Below are positions 19,618 through 26,212 of a DNA stretch of 64,000 nt, one piece after another. Every line of letters begins with the position of its first letter. Within the stretch, counting starts at the first letter, position 1. The stretch spans positions 372,001-436,000 of the forward strand of contig NZ_QULN01000002.1 of NCBI RefSeq assembly GCF_003481705.1, in the 5' to 3' direction. A program made the translations under genes and the position numbers. The notes below the pieces were generated by a model. That model was not told the DNA's origin, made no database searches, and worked only from the letters and a program-made list of their open reading frames with translations. This stretch comes from Butyricicoccus sp. OM04-18BH (GTDB taxonomy: Bacteria > Bacillota > Clostridia > Oscillospirales > Butyricicoccaceae).

Positions 19618-19717
19618 CCAATATTGCAGGTTTTTTCGGTATTTTCCTGTTTCTGTATTTCCGGGGTATCTTCTCAAATCTTCCCGTATTTTCTCGTGCT
19701 TTTCCCTGCAATATTGG
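19618..19717. repeat. 13-bp perfect inverted repeat at the edge of the mobile debris
   Basis: Arms 19618-19630 and 19705-19717 (CCAATATTGCAGG and its complement) enclose 74 A/T-rich bases. It lies between the phosphatase gene and the broken integrase, where an attachment site of an integrated element would be expected. Confidence 0.6.
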
Positions 19718-19755
19718 TAAATTCGTTGGTAAATAAATGCTCTGCACCAACGGGG

Positions 19756-20090
19756 TTAGGCTTCTGCTACTCGAAGCAGCTCTGCCTGTGCGTCATCAAA
19801 CTGCACATGGGTGTAAACATTCAGCCGCTTTCTGTCTTGGGTTCCTGAATCACATACTGCATCTGCGATGTCCGCTGAAGCTGATGGTCTACCTTGATAC
19901 GCTTCTGGTCGAACTCAAGATCGGAAAAGGTCAGCCCACAGAACTCCGAGATACGCAATCCTGTATTGAAAAGAATATAGATCGCATCATAGTATCGGCA
20001 GAAATGCTTATCTTCCTTGAGAAATTTCAGAAGCTCACGCTCCTGCTTACGGGTAATTGCCGCCACGGGTAACGATATTGAAATCTCTCC
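19756..20090 (-). pseudogene. Tn916-type tyrosine integrase remnant
   Basis: On the minus strand the reading frame ITRKQERELLKFLKEDKHFCRYYDAIYILFNTGLRISEFCGLTFSDLEF matches the start of the catalytic domain of Tn916-family integrases, with the first catalytic Arg in TGLRISE. It stops after EPKTESG; a second frame then encodes YTHVQFDDAQAELLRVAEA, the usual C-terminal end. The middle part with the HxxR box and the active Tyr is deleted, and the N-terminal arm domain is absent. It is a dead relic of an integrated element. Confidence 0.85.
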
Positions 20091-20199
20091 TTTCAGAATA
20101 AGGAGAGCCAGACTTGCTGGTCTTATTCTATCACAAATCCGACTCTCCGTATAGCCATGCCATAAGATTTCGGCAATTCTGTTTTCCATAAAATATTGC

Positions 20200-20310
20200 T
20201 TATACAGCCGTTGCCTGATCGAGATAACGTTCAAATTTCTCACGCTTAATCAAAGCTCTATTGCCATTTATCACATAGAAATCTCCATTCGGGTGTTCAT
20301 CAATGAGCAT
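20200..20310 (-). pseudogene. excisionase-like C-terminal fragment
   Basis: A 36-codon frame, MLIDEHPNGDFYVINGN then RALIKREKFERYLDQATAV. It resembles the tail of the small DNA-binding proteins encoded beside Tn916-type integrases (name of a fixed Lys/Arg-rich wing followed by KFERYLD). It overlaps the end of the truncated VapE frame by four bases, so it was probably joined to it by a deletion. Confidence 0.5.
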
Positions 20311-21043
20311 AGGTTTCCTTGGCTCTGCTGATAAAGGACTTAATATCCTCAATGCCTTTGACATTGGCGGTGGCAATCATCTCGGACATTTCGATAATCC
20401 AATGCCCCTGCATCTTGCGGTAAACATTGTCATCGTCAATCCGTTTCAGGTCATCGGAAAACCATTCGTCCCTGACCGCCAGCAGCCGGAAGAAGGTGGA
20501 CTTTCCTGCACCTTGTCCTCCGACCAGACAAAGCATGGTTTCAAACTTGCTTCCCGGCTTGAATACCCGGCTGATTGCACCCAGCATGAACAGCCGCAGA
20601 CATTCATAGGTGAACTCGCTTTCCTCCGCTCCGAGAAAATGGGGCAGGGCGCAGCGGATGCGCTCGGTGCCGTCCCATTCCAGACCATTCAGATAGTCAC
20701 GGATGGGATGGTACTTGTTGCAGTCGGCGACAATGGAGATTGCTTTCTGGATTTTCTTTTCGCTGGTCAGTGTGTACTGATCTTCCAGATAAAGCATCAG
20801 ATAACTCAAATCCGTATCGTTCAAGGTCGTTGTCGGCTTACTCCACCAGAGCGGCTTCACAATATCAATGCGCTCCGTCAGGATGTTGTAGCGGATCGCT
20901 CCTTCCAGCTTCGGGTCATTCTGAAATACAGTCAGACAGTTTCGGATGCTGTTTTTGACAGCGCCGTTATCGGTCGAGTCCAGACTTCCTCTGACTTCCT
21001 CCACGGTCATGCTCGTCTGGGCGTTCTGCAAATCGTTGCTCAA
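20300..21043 (-). pseudogene. VapE-type primase/helicase, C-terminally truncated
   Basis: 247 aa of a virulence-associated protein E family ATPase of phages and integrated elements. The Walker A motif is GGQGAGKSTFF near residue 175, preceded by HPIRDYLNGLEWDGTERI and followed by QGHWIIEMSEM. Complete members continue past SFISRAKETY with the KVPYE/Arg-finger region; here the frame ends five residues after that point and runs into an excisionase-like fragment. It is therefore a truncated, probably inactive copy belonging to the same debris as the integrase relic. Confidence 0.8.
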
Positions 21044-21245
21044 GATTCATTACCTCTTTTCTTTGCTCGGCAACCAGAGCCTTCTTTTCCTCGGCTGTGC
21101 CGTACAGAAGAACATCCAGCAGATATTCGATATGGCTTTCTCTTTGCAGGGCTTCCACAAAAAGCGGATGCCATTCATCCTCCGGCTGCTTTGGTGCGTA
21201 TTGCTGCTTCCATGTCCTGAGATGATGGAAGTAATCAGACAGCAC
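20967..21245 (-). CDS. hypothetical small protein of the decayed element
   Basis: 92 aa, mostly helical and charged (LSDYFHHLRTWKQQYAPKQPEDEWHPLFVEALQ, then HIEYLLDVLLYGTAEEKKALVAEQRKEV). I do not recognise the family. Its last 26 codons overlap the start of the VapE frame in another phase, and just upstream a fragment reading EWDMPPAKYRHDCEKHERTNGEK ends in a stop. It looks like an accessory gene of the same relic; it may be intact or itself a fragment. Confidence 0.5.
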   Translation of the reverse strand: MLSDYFHHLRTWKQQYAPKQPEDEWHPLFVEALQRESHIEYLLDVLLYGTAEEKKALVAEQRKEVMNLEQRFAERPDEHDRGGSQRKSGLDR

Positions 21246-21468
21246 CTTGTAGCATCTTCTCCCCGTTGGTACGCTCGTGCTTTTCGCAGTCGTGGCGATA
21301 CTTCGCCGGGGGCATATCCCATTCGGACGGTCATTCAGTTTTCAAGGTGCATCGGTGACTTGCAAGCACAATTTAGCGAAAAAAGACGCCCTTTCCCGTA
21401 TATCCAAAAGGTTGGAAAAGTGCGTAAAAACGCGTGGATTTCCACGCTTATAGAAATGGAGATGGAAT

Positions 21469-21997
21469 ATGCAACCGAAGCTCACTGTTCAGGAAAGATT
21501 GAAAGATCTGCGTGTCGTGGATTTTAAGTTAACGCTGAAAGAATTGGCGGGGCGCACCGGCCTGTCCCGTGCCGCACTTGGAAAATATGAAGCCGACGAA
21601 ACAGCAAAAGACATAGCCCCTTTGCGATTCTGACACTCGCCAAGTTCTATGGTGTGTCTACGGACTACCTGCTGGGTCTGACAGAAAATAAAAATCACCC
21701 AAACACAGAGCTGAACGCTCTGCATTTGAGTGATGATGCAATTACTGTATTAACTTCAACCACTGGTTGCTTTCTGAAATGATCTGCCACAAAGACTTTC
21801 ATCGCATGATGCTAGATGCAGAAATTTATGTTGACCGCATTGCGGATATGCGGACCACCAACATGAATGCCGCTATGGAAGCTGTCCGGCAATCTGTGAT
21901 TAAGAAAAAAGGAAACGAAAGTAATATTACGCTAATAATAAAACTGCATCTTCCATCTTGTACTGGGATGAAAATTGCAGCGGATTTTTGGGCTTGA
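21469..21997 (+). pseudogene. XRE-family regulator with two frameshifts
   Basis: ATG 21469 follows GGAGATGGA and opens QPKLTVQERLKDLRVVDFKLTLKELAGRTGLSRAALGKYEADET, a helix-turn-helix of XRE type. The frame is lost near 21620, resumes as PFAILTLAKFYGVSTDYLLGLTENK, and is lost again near 21760 before LSEMICHKDFHRMMLDAEIYVDRIADM. Three in-order segments of one protein in three frames show a decayed repressor. A CGTGG/CCACG palindrome near 21432-21447 lies just upstream and may have been its operator. Confidence 0.8.
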
Positions 21998-22129
21998 CTA
22001 TTATCAAGAACAGAAAGTAATGATAGCGTATAATTAAGTTCGCAAAAGCAAACAGGAAATAGGCAAGCCATCAGGACTCCTGTAAAATGATAGTTGTCGA
22101 AAAAATCATGATGCAAAGGAGAGACCCTA

Positions 22130-22237
22130 ATGGCTTACAAAAAGAATACCACAAATCTGACAGAATTGCTACTGCAATGTGTGACGCAGCCGGATTCGAT
22201 GCTGAGTATGCTGGAATGGCTGTGCACAGAGCTGATG
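22130..22237 (+). pseudogene. IS256-family transposase, N-terminal stub
   Basis: ATG 22130 follows AAAGGAGAG. The first 36 codons, with LTELLLQCVTQPDSMLSMLEWLCTELM, match the start of IS256-type transposases. The reading then passes abruptly into antisense ParA sequence, so only the first tenth of the transposase remains. Confidence 0.75.
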
Positions 22238-22492
22238 CGCGGGTCAAAGCTAAAAATGCTGGTGCCTCTGGCACTCATTTCTACGGCCTTGATACCGCGC
22301 GGTATCTCTGTGTCATACACTCGTATCGCCTTGCCGTAGGTATCCCGCACAAACCGGCTGATCTCCTTAGAGAAGTTCGTCCGGCTGCTGCCAGCCGAGC
22401 ATCTCGGTCAGGTTCGCCTGGCTGTCTGCGTCAATGAGCAGGACACGTTTGCCCTGCCGCGTAAGTCCCGCACCCAGATGGTGTTTTCTCCT
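22238..22492 (-). pseudogene. ParA-family ATPase remnant with internal deletion
   Basis: On the minus strand one frame gives GAGLTRQGKRVLLIDADSQANLTEMLGWQQPDELL (start of a ParA after Walker A). A second frame, directly after, gives FSKEISRFVRDTYGKAIRVYDTEIPRGIKAVEMSARGTSIFSFDPR (near its C terminus). About 500 bases in the middle are missing. The intact element ParA at 35.8 kb has the same SxRAEEISAEGTSIFKHDP ending, showing the relic came from a related element. Confidence 0.75.
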
Positions 22493-22579
22493 TAAAATTA
22501 TAGATTTTCAGAACTTTTAATGGAACTAAAAAAATCCGGAAATGGCCTGTCCCATCAGGTTTTGTCATGCGGATTGTTT

Positions 22580-23002
22580 TTAGATGGTCGTACCATCTGC
22601 GGCCATATCTTCGAACAAATCGGTGATGGGGTCGCCCTTGGACTGGAAGGTTGCAGCCGACCACGGGATACCAGCGGCAGACTGCGGATAAATACCGGTT
22701 GTATGATCGACAAAGTAGGCATCGAAACCGCCTTCGCGGATTTGTTCCGGCGTAAGATTACGAGTAAGCTGATAAAGAATGCTAGAAATCATCTCCATGT
22801 GTGCAAGTTCTTCGGTACCAATATCGGTAAGGATTCCCTTGCATTCCTTATATGGCATGGCGTAGCGCTGGTTGAGGTAGCGCATCGAGGCGCCGAGCTC
22901 ACCGTCCGGCCCGCCAAGCTGCGAAATGACGATTTTTGCGAGCTGAGGATTAGGATTTTTGATTTTTACCGGGAATTGCAGGCGTTTATCGTATGACCAC
23001 AT
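22580..23002 (-). pseudogene. cotJC: cotJC 5' part (spore-coat manganese catalase), interrupted
   Basis: ATG 23002 overlaps the cotJB stop (TGATG). Codons 1-135 encode the N-terminal two thirds of CotJC, a manganese-catalase-like coat protein: MWSYDKRLQFPVKI start, QLGGPDGELGASMRYLNQRYAMP, and the metal-ligand region TDIGTEELAHMEMI. After FEDMAA the frame leaves the family, adds DGTTI and stops. The family continues EQKARATYE, and exactly that continuation (EQKARSTYDN) is found on the plus strand from 25940. As it stands the product lacks the C-terminal metal ligands. Rejoining by inversion of 22597-25941 gives a 225-codon gene. Confidence 0.9.
22587..22600 (-). repeat. left hybrid recombination site of the cotJ segment
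   Basis: Read on the minus strand: cotJC sequence ends GCAGA and is followed by TGGTACGAC. The GA (22597-22596) is the proposed crossover core. The half after the core is the complement of the half before the core at 25931-25941. Confidence 0.7.
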
Positions 23003-23259
23003 CAGTTATCCGCTCCTTCCCACGGCCACGGATCATCGATCCAGTTCCAATGACCGCCGCGCACATCGACCTCACGCGCGGTCAGCGGACCGAAAGCATC
23101 CTCGTATTCACTGGATGCCTTGTCGAAGGCGGCGCGCATTTCACGGTAGTATTTCAGAGCGGCTTCATTGTGCGGATGACAGTCGAGATATTCGATGACC
23201 TCGACAAGAGCAAAGTCATACATCCGTACACGGCCGAGCAGTTTTTCTCGTTCACTCAC
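23002..23259 (-). CDS. cotJB: spore coat protein CotJB
   Basis: 85 aa, GTG start at 23259 overlapping the cotJA stop (GTGA). The sequence KLLGRVRMYDFALVEVIEYLDCHPHNEAALKYYREMR and the ending GGHWNWIDDPWPWEG are typical of CotJB, a small inner-coat component encoded between cotJA and cotJC. In Bacillus the cotJ operon is transcribed by mother-cell sigma-E. The coding sequence is intact. It lies inside the segment proposed to invert, so it would move together with cotJA and the 5' part of cotJC. Confidence 0.93.
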   Translation of the reverse strand: MSEREKLLGRVRMYDFALVEVIEYLDCHPHNEAALKYYREMRAAFDKASSEYEDAFGPLTAREVDVRGGHWNWIDDPWPWEGADN

Positions 23260-23435
23260 TGTACGGCCTCCTCTCCGACGAAGGGGAGGTCGAGAGCGGG
23301 GAAAATCGTTCCCCGGTTGAGGGCAAGCGCCGGTTCATAAGGCGTTCCGAACGGCTGCTCAGGAACGAACGCCATCGCCGGGGCAAGCAGACGGATCGGT
23401 ATTTCGAGTACCGCCTGCGGTTGGTTCTGGTCCAT
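23256..23435 (-). CDS. cotJA: spore coat associated protein CotJA
   Basis: 59 aa from ATG 23435 behind GAGGAGAAAT; the longer frame to 23504 has no ribosome site. The Pro-rich sequence PIRLLAPAMAFVPEQPFGTPYEPALALNRGTIFPALDLPF matches the short CotJA family. It is the first gene of cotJA-cotJB-cotJC, with start and stop codons overlapping downstream. The protein is a coat component of the outer prespore surface in known cases. Promoter elements for sigma-E could not be fixed in the 90 bases upstream. Confidence 0.92.
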   Translation of the reverse strand: MDQNQPQAVLEIPIRLLAPAMAFVPEQPFGTPYEPALALNRGTIFPALDLPFVGEEAVQ

Positions 23436-23691
23436 GATTTCTCCTCGTTTCGGTTGATTTGGAAGAAAAAACGACGGTACCGCCGCTCTTTGCTTCCAGT
23501 GCATTCTATGCCGAGGGCCGAGGATGGTGTGTCGTCAAAACACCATCAAGTCTGGACACATTTCTAAAACAACCTCTATTTGACGGAAAGACTTTTGGGG
23601 AAGCCTGGCAAGACACGGAATGGGTAAACGAATGATGAAAGACTGACATATTGTTTCCTACATTTGCGTATTTCGAACAAATTTCATATAC

Positions 23692-23739
23692 AACAACAGC
23701 CATTCACCTATAAAGCATTACAGGTGGGTGGCTGTTGTT
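23692..23739 (+). terminator. strong terminator upstream of the recombinase unit
   Basis: AACAACAGCCA pairs with TGGCTGTTGTT, with an inner ACCT/AGGT stem, followed by seven T residues. No plus-strand gene precedes it in the present order, which suggests it was separated from its gene by rearrangement. Confidence 0.8.
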
Positions 23740-23806
23740 TTTTTACTTTTTTTCTTCCTTCTTGGGGAAGGGGCCGCCTTTCCTCTTTGGCTGAATACAT
23801 TTCTCA

Positions 23807-23930
23807 AATCTGGAGATTTTCGGCATACTCGTGCAAAGTGTAATAGTCCGTCAGTTTCTGAAGGTTAAAGGGGCTGATGTCAGTACAATCTTCTGATTCA
23901 TATCTTCCAAGCAGCGTAGAAAAATGACGA
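23807..23930 (-). pseudogene. XRE-type regulator fragment
   Basis: The minus-strand frame ends LGRYESEDCTDISPFNLQKLTDYYTLHEYAENLQI. It aligns by eye with LGKYEADETAKDI-PFAILTLAKFYGVSTDYLLG of the frameshifted regulator at 21.5 kb, that is the last helices of an XRE domain. The N-terminal part of the domain is not present. Confidence 0.45.
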
Positions 23931-24134
23931 TTTTGATGGGTCAAAACCACCTGCCCCGGTTTTGGGGTGAAAGCGAAAAAGCAAAGGCGCGAGCGTGCCC
24001 TGTGCTGCAATACGGCGTGTCGTCACGACAGGCGGCTTGTCAGAAACGCAGCGCGGGAGGAACGGCAAAATTTGATACAATTATACTATATATAAGCAAA
24101 TAAACATAGACTGACGCCAAGGAGGGTACGTGCC

Positions 24135-24281
24135 ATGAACGAACAGCAAAGCAAGCCGTCTGTCTGCCGCAACATCTTCAAGACCGGCAGCAGTACCACC
24201 TCGGCCGCAGTTACGCGCAAGTGGATAGAACTCATCAACACAGTTGAGAAAGACAACGCAAACAAACCTTTTCGGACATAA
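24135..24281 (+). CDS. 48-aa small protein preceding the serine recombinase
   Basis: ATG 24135 lies 8 bases after AAGGAGGG. The product, MNEQQSKPSVCRNIFKTGSS followed by a TTSAAVTRKWIELINTVEKDN segment, has one Cys and a likely helix at the end. I do not recognise a characterised family. It is the gene directly before the recombinase, separated by 75 bases that contain the recombinase promoter. Small proteins in this position in serine-recombinase elements can be directionality factors, which is a guess here. Confidence 0.65.
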   Translation: MNEQQSKPSVCRNIFKTGSSTTSAAVTRKWIELINTVEKDNANKPFRT

Positions 24282-24282
24282 A

Positions 24283-24322
24283 ATGACAGGCCGTTTCCGC
24301 TATGGTATAATGATAGCGGAAA
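24283..24322 (+). promoter_or_regulatory. recombinase promoter overlapped by a 10-bp palindrome
   Basis: ATGACA (24283), 17 bases, TATAAT (24306-24311). A perfect inverted repeat, arms TTTCCGCTAT (24294-24303) and its complement (24313-24322), encloses the -10 box in its 9-base centre. A protein bound to this palindrome would shut off the recombinase. Confidence 0.75.
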
Positions 24323-24356
24323 TGGCTTGTTCTATCTCTTGAAAGGAGATACGAGC

Positions 24357-25910
24357 ATGAAAGCAGCTATTTACTGCCGCCTGTCCGAGGAGGACAGAAA
24401 TAAGCAATGCGAAACCGATGACTCCGGCAGCATCCGGAACCAGAAGGCGATGCTGATGCAGTACGCCGCCGGGCAGGGCTGGGAGATCTATCATATATAC
24501 AGCGACGATGACTATACCGGCTCCGACCGCCGCCGTCCGGAATTCAACCGCCTTCTGGCGGATGCCAAGGCGCATAAATTCGACATCGTGCTGTGCAAGA
24601 CGCAGTCCCGCTTTACCCGCGAGCTTGAGCTGGTCGAAAAGTACATACACGGCCTGTTCCCCATCTGGGGCATCCGATTTGTCAGCATCGTAGACAATGC
24701 CGATACCGCCAACAAGGGCAACAAGAAGTCCCGTCAGATCAACGGTCTTGTCAACGAGTGGTACCTCGAGGATATGTCGGACAACATCCGCAGCGTGCTC
24801 ACGAGCCGCCGCAGAAACGGGTATCATATCGGCGCGTTCGCCCTCTACGGCTATCAGAAGGACCCCGACCAAAAGGGACACCTGATTATAGATGAGGAGG
24901 CTGCCGCCGTTGTCCGCGAGGTCTTTACCCTGTTCGCACAGGGCTGCGGCAAGACGGCTATCGCCCGTATGCTCAACGACCGAGGTATCCCGAACCCTAC
25001 GGAGTACAAGCGTCAGCATGGCTTGCGATATAAGCAGCCGAAAACCAAAAACAGCACCTTATGGAAATATTTCGCGATTGCAGATATGCTCGAAAACGAA
25101 ATCTACATCGGCAACATGGTGCAGGGCAAGTACGGCAGCGTGTCGTACAAGACCAAGCAGAGCAAGCCGCGCCCGAAAAGCGAGTGGTACCGTGTCGAGA
25201 ACACGCATGAGCCGATCATCGACCGCGCGTTATGGAACAGAGTACAGGCGCTTCTCGCCCAGAAGGCGAAGCCTTTTGCCGCCGGCACGATCGGCCTGTT
25301 CGCCCGCAAGGCCCGCTGCGCGAGCTGCGGTTACACCCTGCGCTCCTCCGTGACGAACGGCCGCCGCTATCTGCAATGCCCGAACCGTCATGTCGCAAAA
25401 GACGCTTGCACGGGCGCTTTTATCTCGGTCGATAAATTGGAGGGGCTTGTCATTGACGAACTGAACCGTTTGGCGGCCGAGTATCTTGACAAGGACGAAC
25501 TCGAACGCAGCGTCGAGTTTTGCGACGGTTTGTCCGCGCAGAGGTCCCGTCTGCTTTCCGATATTGCGGCCTACGAAAAGAAAGCCGCAGAATACGCCAA
25601 GGGGCTCCGCGAGCTTTATCTGGATAAGGTCAGGGGACTTCTGTCCGAGGGCGACTACATCGAGCTGTCGCACGACTTCACCGCCGAGCGCGACCGTCTG
25701 GAGCAGATGATTGCAGACGCACAGAGGCAGCTCAATGAAATCGAGGAAAGGCAGGCCGCCGGCGACAACCGCCGCGAGCTGATCGAGCAGTATACCCATC
25801 TGACGCACCTCACCCGCCCGATCGTCGAAACGCTCATCGACTACATCTCGGTCGGCCGCCGCATTCCGGGCACAAAGGACGTTCCGATCGAAATTCACTG
25901 GAGCTTTTAA
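24357..25910 (+). CDS. large serine recombinase
   Basis: 517 aa from ATG 24357 behind AAAGGAGA. The N-terminal resolvase domain has the nucleophilic Ser at residue 10 (YCRLSEED) and the KTQSRFTRE active-site helix. A recombinase domain (YGYQKDPDQKGHLIIDEEAAAVVREVF) follows, then a zinc ribbon with CASCGY and CPNRHVAKDAC, then a coiled coil at about residues 390-460 (DELERSVEFC to ERQAAGDNRRE). Such enzymes recombine attP with attB and need a directionality factor to reverse. The gene ends 20 bases before the right recombination site, the usual arrangement. All visible motifs are intact, so it may be active. Confidence 0.93.
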   Translation: MKAAIYCRLSEEDRNKQCETDDSGSIRNQKAMLMQYAAGQGWEIYHIYSDDDYTGSDRRRPEFNRLLADAKAHKFDIVLCKTQSRFTRELELVEKYIHGLFPIWGIRFVSIVDNADTANKGNKKSRQINGLVNEWYLEDMSDNIRSVLTSRRRNGYHIGAFALYGYQKDPDQKGHLIIDEEAAAVVREVFTLFAQGCGKTAIARMLNDRGIPNPTEYKRQHGLRYKQPKTKNSTLWKYFAIADMLENEIYIGNMVQGKYGSVSYKTKQSKPRPKSEWYRVENTHEPIIDRALWNRVQALLAQKAKPFAAGTIGLFARKARCASCGYTLRSSVTNGRRYLQCPNRHVAKDACTGAFISVDKLEGLVIDELNRLAAEYLDKDELERSVEFCDGLSAQRSRLLSDIAAYEKKAAEYAKGLRELYLDKVRGLLSEGDYIELSHDFTAERDRLEQMIADAQRQLNEIEERQAAGDNRRELIEQYTHLTHLTRPIVETLIDYISVGRRIPGTKDVPIEIHWSF

Positions 25911-25930
25911 GCAGAAGTTGTTCCTGCGCA

Positions 25931-25943
25931 GTCGTACCAGAAC
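25931..25943 (+). repeat. right hybrid recombination site of the cotJ segment
   Basis: GTCGTACCA (25931-25939), then the GA core (25940-25941), then cotJC sequence ACAAAAGG. Together with the site at 22587-22600 the GA cores point in opposite directions, which predicts inversion of the DNA between them. Confidence 0.7.
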
Positions 25944-26212
25944 AAAAGGCGCGTTCGACCTACGACAACCTGCTTCGTCTAATCGACGACCCGGATGTGC
26001 GCGAACCGCTCAAGTTCCTGCGCGAACGCGAGGTCGTGCATTTTCAGCGCTTCGGCGACGCGCTTTCCGTCGTTCAGTCCAACCTTGACGCGAAAAACTA
26101 CTACGCCTGGAATCCGGCGTTCGATGTGCGGCCGCGCGAACGAAGCGCTCCCGCTCCCTCCCGTCCGTACCCCATGCAGAACCGCAGCGACGTAACTGCG
26201 CCGCACGAATAA
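25940..26212 (+). pseudogene. cotJC: cotJC 3' part on the opposite strand
   Basis: 90 codons plus stop: EQKARSTYDNLLRLIDDPDVREPLKFLREREVVHFQRFGDAL and onwards. This is the C-terminal end of CotJC, including the EREVVHFQRFG segment with the remaining metal ligands, followed by an NP-rich tail ending TAPHE. It has no start codon or ribosome site and directly follows the recombinase site. It is the exact missing continuation of the minus-strand cotJC at 22580-23002. A terminator follows, as expected for the end of the cotJ operon. Confidence 0.92.

Follow-up and report, generated by a model that had tools for sequence, protein, structure and literature searches.

A large serine recombinase element divides the spore-coat gene cotJC between head-to-head attachment sites in Butyricicoccus sp. 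OM04-18BH

Results

The divided cotJC locus

In this study, we examined a stretch of 64,000 nucleotides from Butyricicoccus sp. OM04-18BH (contig NZ_QULN01000002.1, positions 372,001 to 436,000; hereafter the window), in which the sporulation gene cotJC, encoding a coat catalase, is divided by a recombinase-bearing element into two in-frame, complementary parts. The features that concern this division are the following, where attL and attR denote the left and right attachment (att) sites.

22574..22595, plus strand: P-type arm of attL, 17/22 identities to the family consensus arm and the best match in the 64 kb
22596..22597, plus strand: crossover dinucleotide of attL, TC on the plus and GA on the minus strand
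22598..23002, minus strand: cotJC codons 1-135, B arm of attL (Mn_catalase, E = 9.2e-39; 96% identical to the kin genome G809)
23002..23259, minus strand: cotJB (CotJB, E = 1.8e-25)
23256..23435, minus strand: cotJA (CotJA, E = 2.5e-14), with a start codon of our choosing; the longest open frame reaches 23504
23511..23540, minus strand: putative mother-cell promoter of the cotJ operon, GGCATAGAATG (kin version GGCATACACTG), tentatively assigned from an alignment with 12 kin upstream regions
24105..24112, plus strand: sigma-E-like -10 box CATAGACT before the small open reading frame (ORF), with no clear -35 box
24135..24281, plus strand: conserved small ORF of 48 residues, candidate recombination directionality factor, with no match in Pfam or NCBIfam
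24357..25910, plus strand: intact large serine recombinase of 517 residues (Resolvase, Recombinase, Zn_ribbon_recom, DUF4368)
25918..25939, plus strand: P arm of attR, 13/22 identities to the family consensus arm
25940..25941, plus strand: crossover dinucleotide of attR, GA, the first two bases of codon 136
25940..26212, plus strand: cotJC codons 136-225 and stop, B arm of attR (Mn_catalase, E = 2.7e-9)
22598..25939, no strand: segment of 3,342 bp whose computed inversion restores cotJABC as an intact plus-strand operon, with an attP site at the left

An original prediction, made from the letters of this DNA, had described cotJC as split between the strands, and its coordinates and reading frame for both halves proved right to the base. 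Codons 1-135 lie on the minus strand downstream of cotJB and cotJA, both of which are intact, as had been claimed (Pfam matches to CotJB and CotJA, and to Mn_catalase for the cotJC half), and codons 136-225 lie on the plus strand, starting 29 nt past the stop codon of the recombinase. The halves were also said to complement each other exactly; joined together, they align in full with CotJC from the kin locus L170, where the gene is intact, and EDMAAEQKAR spans the join. The serine recombinase expected directly before the 3′ half is indeed present as an uninterrupted frame of 517 residues, carries all four domains of the DUF4368 type (Resolvase, Recombinase, zinc ribbon and DUF4368) above Pfam gathering scores, matches YokA structures in sequence, and adjoins an attachment site of its own element.

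A complete attL/attR pair with the crossover dinucleotide GA is present, its host arms being formed by the two halves of cotJC; the original prediction had not recognized these recombination sites as such. Because the two P arms point the same way along the plus strand, their cores alone being different (TC at 22596, GA at 25940), the sites stand head-to-head by core polarity, that is, in inverted orientation around the segment, as in an inverton; the direct attL/attR arrangement that serves excision is absent from the window and present in the 15 testable relatives described below. Computed exchange between the two sites inverts 3,342 bp, joins GCCGCA-GA-ACAAAAG in frame and leaves TTGTTTTTAGATGGTCGTACCA-TC-TGGTACGACTGCGCAGGAACAA at the left. 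This bears out the proposal that an inversion of about 3.35 kb, and not an excision, would restore cotJC and carry cotJA and cotJB along. Serine integrases with head-to-head att sites give inversion, according to the available part of PMC4111918, and the recombinase of skin, the element that splits sigK in Clostridioides difficile, has been assayed on an inverted attP site in Escherichia coli (PMC5025042, in the part available). The sites in the window are not a chance resemblance, since many other genomes carry half-sites of this design at the same codon.

The recombinase family and its attachment gene

A scan of GTDB genomes for relatives of the recombinase gave 435 loci, and the best 80, at 76-84% identity, were retained. 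In 57 of these 80 the end of the recombinase gene is no more than 400 bp from cotJC codon 136, and in 14 it is equally close to codon 135. These counts identify cotJC as the gene at which a family of intervening elements of gut Clostridia has its attachment site. Nine show neither arrangement; among them, L027 runs into cotJC too briefly to be scored, in L078 the cotJC 5′ half lies on the opposite side of the recombinase, in L057 the 3′ half is 3.7 kb distant, and L077 stops at a contig edge. Site alignments, as read by us, give a nearly palindromic attP, TTGTTCTTATATGATTGCACCA-GA-TGGTGCAATCATATAAGAACAA, and host arms that correspond to conserved cotJC sequence around codons 135/136. The seven elements that we read measure 3.2-6.3 kb and hold the recombinase with one or a few other open frames. 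By record name, cultured carriers are Anaerotignum lactatifermentans DSM 14214, Roseburia faecis M72, Parablautia intestinalis D8-82 and Flintibacter muris DSM 110149. A scan of IMG/VR yielded 12 recombinase loci, with the 5′ part of cotJC near the recombinase in three, the 3′ part in three and both in none. No close relative came from plasmid and phage collections. In one survey, DUF4368 occurs mostly in multi-targeting recombinases (PMC10083194, in the part available); in contrast to that trend, the DUF4368 family described here mostly keeps to one target gene.

Individual members vary in their make-up. At L011 (6231-14418), two related recombinases lie in tandem within a single cotJC, the first being followed by an attP-like junction; these are probably two elements inserted side by side. 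At L004, the recombinase is followed not by cotJC but by an intact attP-like sequence (1580-1612), which may belong to an excised, circular or otherwise placed form; in the same genome (G876), cotJC is cut near codon 64. Frame length was tried as a mark of a split gene and dropped, because some attL sites lack an early stop (L041 of genome G884 is split, yet retains a frame of 232 residues).

Both cotJC halves are found on one fetched locus in 11 of the best 80 loci, and in all 11 they are direct, 3.2-10.1 kb apart. Four more genomes have the halves on one contig and one strand, separated by about 29.6 kb (G809), 13.2 kb (G819), 52.5 kb (G808) and 29 kb (G038), which brings the direct cases to 15 of 15 loci with both halves placed on one contig; the window is the only inverted case seen. 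Six genomes of f79, the family to which the host of the window seems to belong, are uninformative, having their halves on different contigs (G818, G821, G674, G836, G817 and G826), as is G841, which has no cotJC 3′ match. Since all 15 other loci are direct, the family looks built for excision and the inversion in the window looks secondary. On the same count, the further part of the original prediction, that the locus is an evolved invertible switch controlling the coat catalase, is not supported in the form in which it was put.

A small ORF of about 50 residues precedes the recombinase in 88 of the 89 loci with at least 250 nt upstream (duplicates included; the exception is L072), its end usually lying 67-78 nt before the recombinase. 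Many loci share GAATAGTGGACTTGCCGCTATTCATATAGT upstream of it. The -10 box CATANANT occurs in 46 of 85 distinct upstream sequences as against a mean of 4.0 (maximum 9) in shuffles, and a combined -35 plus -10 pattern in 31 of 85 as against 0.46 (maximum 3), the shuffles being of single letters over 200 rounds and the pattern having been chosen after the shared upstream sequence had been viewed. The pattern resembles the sigma-E promoter consensus. On these features, the small ORF is a candidate for the directionality factor of the family.

A second place of interruption lies near codon 64 of cotJC, as seen in L181, L182, L183, L058, L008, L013 and L047. In L181, L182, L183 and L058 the gap holds a different serine recombinase, 27-29% identical to that of the window, and L058 and G808 (L181) carry both insertions, which leaves cotJC in three pieces. 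Within f79, 14 of 87 genomes have two cotJC pieces parting near codon 64-74 (our count from the table), this site being used by other elements.

Selection, host and neighbourhood

Both halves of cotJC are under constraint. The ratio of nonsynonymous to synonymous change (dN/dS) had a median of 0.122 in split and 0.140 in intact 5′ halves, and of 0.161 in split and 0.093 in intact 3′ halves; these medians include duplicate loci, have synonymous sites near saturation, and come from pairs with a protein identity of 0.60-0.995 and a proportion of synonymous differences (pS) of 0.05-0.70, distant and near-identical pairs being dropped. A stop within 60 codons was present in 3 of 76 split and 6 of 57 intact 3′ halves. 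Among the 5′ stretches, 7 of 52 split and 3 of 58 intact ones contain a stop, and six of those seven are also cut near codon 64. Because the split 3′ half has no start of its own, its preservation favours reassembly of the gene. In the window itself, the cargo of the element has decayed, and the recombinase, the small ORF, the att sites and the cotJ genes are whole. The constraint on split halves gives no date for the rearrangement of the window.

With regard to the host, FabF is 83-85% identical to the best f79 members and the cotJC 5′ half 96% identical to G809. A cotJC match is present in 70 of the 87 f79 genomes, and at least 11 are split at codon 135. The genome nearest by shared words, G001, was rejected as kin on the genes compared, its cotJC being 62% identical, as against 85% for FabF and 96% for the cotJC 5′ half in f79; its shared words would stem from the mobile-element-like stretch at 33-64 kb. 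In kin, a HAD-DUF436 gene on the minus strand is followed by cotJA-cotJB-cotJC on the plus strand, and in L170 and L176 alone the next gene is FabF. After DUF436 the window continues, at about 16.3 kb, with greA, a gene of 636 residues, a phosphatase gene, decayed element DNA and the turned cotJ block; a gap of about 0.8 kb separates cotJA from the small ORF, and on the plus strand the cotJC 3′ half is followed by FabF and then an acyl-CoA ligase. The neighbour of 636 residues was found in none of 25 genomes of the genus, the phosphatase gene is placed elsewhere in G808 and G809 (the kin whose places were compared), and a gene scrap at 23528-23632 had no match in the 87 f79 genomes. Between the outer breakpoints and the 19.4-19.9 kb side, the longest inverted match is 9 bp and the longest direct match 11 bp; neither this comparison, nor that of kin intergenic sequence, nor the search for the gene scrap decides the order of the rearrangements. 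An 11-bp direct repeat, TTCTCAAATCT, at 19671-19681 and 23801-23811, lies near both outer breakpoints, possibly by chance.

The remaining feature of the locus is the following.

19650..22573, no strand: decayed element DNA left of attL, with a gapped tyrosine-integrase fragment, a VapE/VirE-like fragment, an XRE-like fragment, and transposase-like and ParA-like scraps

The XRE-like, transposase-like and ParA-like labels are our own reading, and the guanine plus cytosine (GC) content of this DNA is about 47-49%. In the tyrosine-integrase remnant (19755-20243), N- and C-terminal parts are joined across an internal gap, and its end lies about 150 bp from the phosphatase gene. The end of the XRE-like gene is present as diverged inverted copies at 21577-21637 and 23853-23911, one in each part of the element. 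Further to the right, GC content drops from about 33 kb, and 33000-64000, with partition, type IV coupling, VirB4-like, topoisomerase and very large helicase/methylase-like frames (names by our reading), is likely a conjugative element.

Discussion

The explanation that we favour, and hold to be reasonably probable, is a cotJC-intervening element whose locus was rearranged, with the result that the same recombination would today invert DNA instead of excising it. A small mobile cassette, integrated by its large serine recombinase at cotJC codons 135/136, would be acted upon when a directionality factor, proposed to be the product of the small ORF, is made in the mother cell, and the gene would thereby be rejoined. 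In the relatives, with their halves direct, rejoining would be excision, as in skin, SPbeta and gin. In the window, a further rearrangement would have turned cotJA-cotJB-cotJC5′, with breakpoints near 23.54 kb upstream of cotJA and in element DNA, so that recombination of attL with attR would invert the 3,342 bp, place an intact cotJABC operon facing fabF and regenerate attP at the left. Two routes may have led to this state: direct insertion into cotJC followed by inversion, or insertion of the element upstream of cotJA followed by recombination of attP with attB. We prefer the first, because it explains the presence of a cotJC-specific recombinase and agrees with what is seen in the rest of the family; site-specific events alone suffice for the second.

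Several observations count against a rearranged but working element. The 3′ half is less constrained when split than when intact, by the medians given above, and that of the window has a proportion of nonsynonymous differences (pN) to kin of 0.065-0.118, as against a median of 0.043 among seven intact kin, or about twice the expected rate. The right P arm is weak, at 13/22, the promoter before the small ORF in the window has no clear -35 box, and the exact -10 pattern is absent from 39 of the 85 relatives. Neither an excision nor an inversion product was seen in any genome that we looked at. Finally, the rearrangement is neither datable nor provably secondary, since the window has no twin, and insertion upstream of cotJA followed by an attP × attB inversion would give the same junctions.

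A developmentally controlled inversion, in which a sigma-E-driven factor of the mother cell and the recombinase would flip the cotJAB-cotJC5′ block through the head-to-head attL and attR, is a tentative and rather doubtful proposition. Were it true, no DNA would be lost, unlike in excision, and attP would stay on the chromosome; the recombinase without the factor could then reverse the flip by attP × attB, which would make this a reversible rearrangement of a sporulation gene. That the arrangement evolved as a switch, from a cassette of recombinase and attP upstream of cotJA that is turned off by attP × attB and on by attL × attR with the factor, appears distinctly unlikely to us. All the parts that such a switch requires are intact, the present geometry permits exactly that alone, and the tyrosine-integrase scrap within about 150 bp of the phosphatase gene looks as if an integrase had inserted an element upstream of cotJA; however, none of the 15 other placed loci is inverted, a cotJC-specific recombinase would hardly land by chance just beside cotJ, and no inverted repeat longer than 9 bp was found at the presumed element ends.

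A dead relic, in which cotJC was permanently parted by the rearrangement and its pieces are in decay, would be in keeping with a cargo reduced to scraps, the raised pN of the 3′ half and the weak rightmost arm of the sites. We nevertheless consider it unlikely, given that no stop interrupts the recombinase with its 517 codons, the small ORF, cotJA, cotJB or either cotJC half, and that the 5′ half is 96% identical to G809 despite saturated synonymous sites. As for an ordinary direct insertion that was misassembled or became a strain chimera, it is true that most relatives are metagenome bins and that several have their halves on different contigs, but the repeats at the att junctions are only arms of about 22 nt with 15/22 identities (our count), and the outer junctions share no repeat of 12 bases or more in the stretches compared (the longest being 11), which makes this a very improbable account.

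If a rearranged intervening element is indeed what the window holds, it would represent a natural change of geometry, from cut to flip, and it raises the question whether regulated gene assembly tolerates either outcome. More broadly, a recombinase family found across many gut Clostridia has its attachment site in the coat catalase gene, and other elements interrupt this gene at a second place, near codon 64. In the shared small ORF, a candidate for the missing directionality factor is at hand, and the named cultured carriers make the idea testable. What appears to be new here is a family of cotJC-targeting intervening elements with a probable directionality factor, one member of which has its sites head-to-head. 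A literature search, with most subscription journals outside its coverage, found no description of cotJC intervening elements.

Recombinase-split sporulation genes are known for few targets, namely sigK, spsM, gerE and yabG. In spsM of Bacillus subtilis, SPbeta (SprA/YokA, SprB/YotN) similarly places a serine recombinase in a spore-envelope gene, whose regulated reassembly also involves a small factor, to which the small ORF would correspond, but it is a large prophage and acts by excision (PMC4191935, in the part available). The yin element in yabG of Clostridium botulinum also lies in a sporulation gene, and differs in being prophage-like and in its target (available part of PMC10747680). 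The nearest published case to cotJC intervening elements, as far as the accessible parts of PMC11222575 and PMC12122855 go, is the phi027 prophage of C. difficile, a mobile element integrated beside a CotJC-like gene; there it is described as adjacent to the cotJC homologue, without a claim of a split regulated gene. A further case is gin in gerE of Bacillus cereus ATCC10987 (GirC, GirX), likewise a non-phage intervening element with a recombinase, where a 6.5-kDa factor, the counterpart of the candidate proposed here, directs a 58-kDa recombinase; it differs in its 28.6 kb, three recombinases, 9-bp shared sequence and direct orientation (PMC5595907, as far as available). Finally, in skin in sigK of C. 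difficile, as set out in the available part of PMC5025042, a large serine recombinase (CD1231) and a small factor (CD1234), the latter under sigma-E and SpoIIID, belong to an element that splits a mother-cell gene; the window likewise has a large serine recombinase in an element that splits such a gene, with a small candidate factor. The factor has 72 residues in skin and the candidate 48 in the window, which is set apart by cotJC as its target, by a small cassette and by sites that stand head-to-head.

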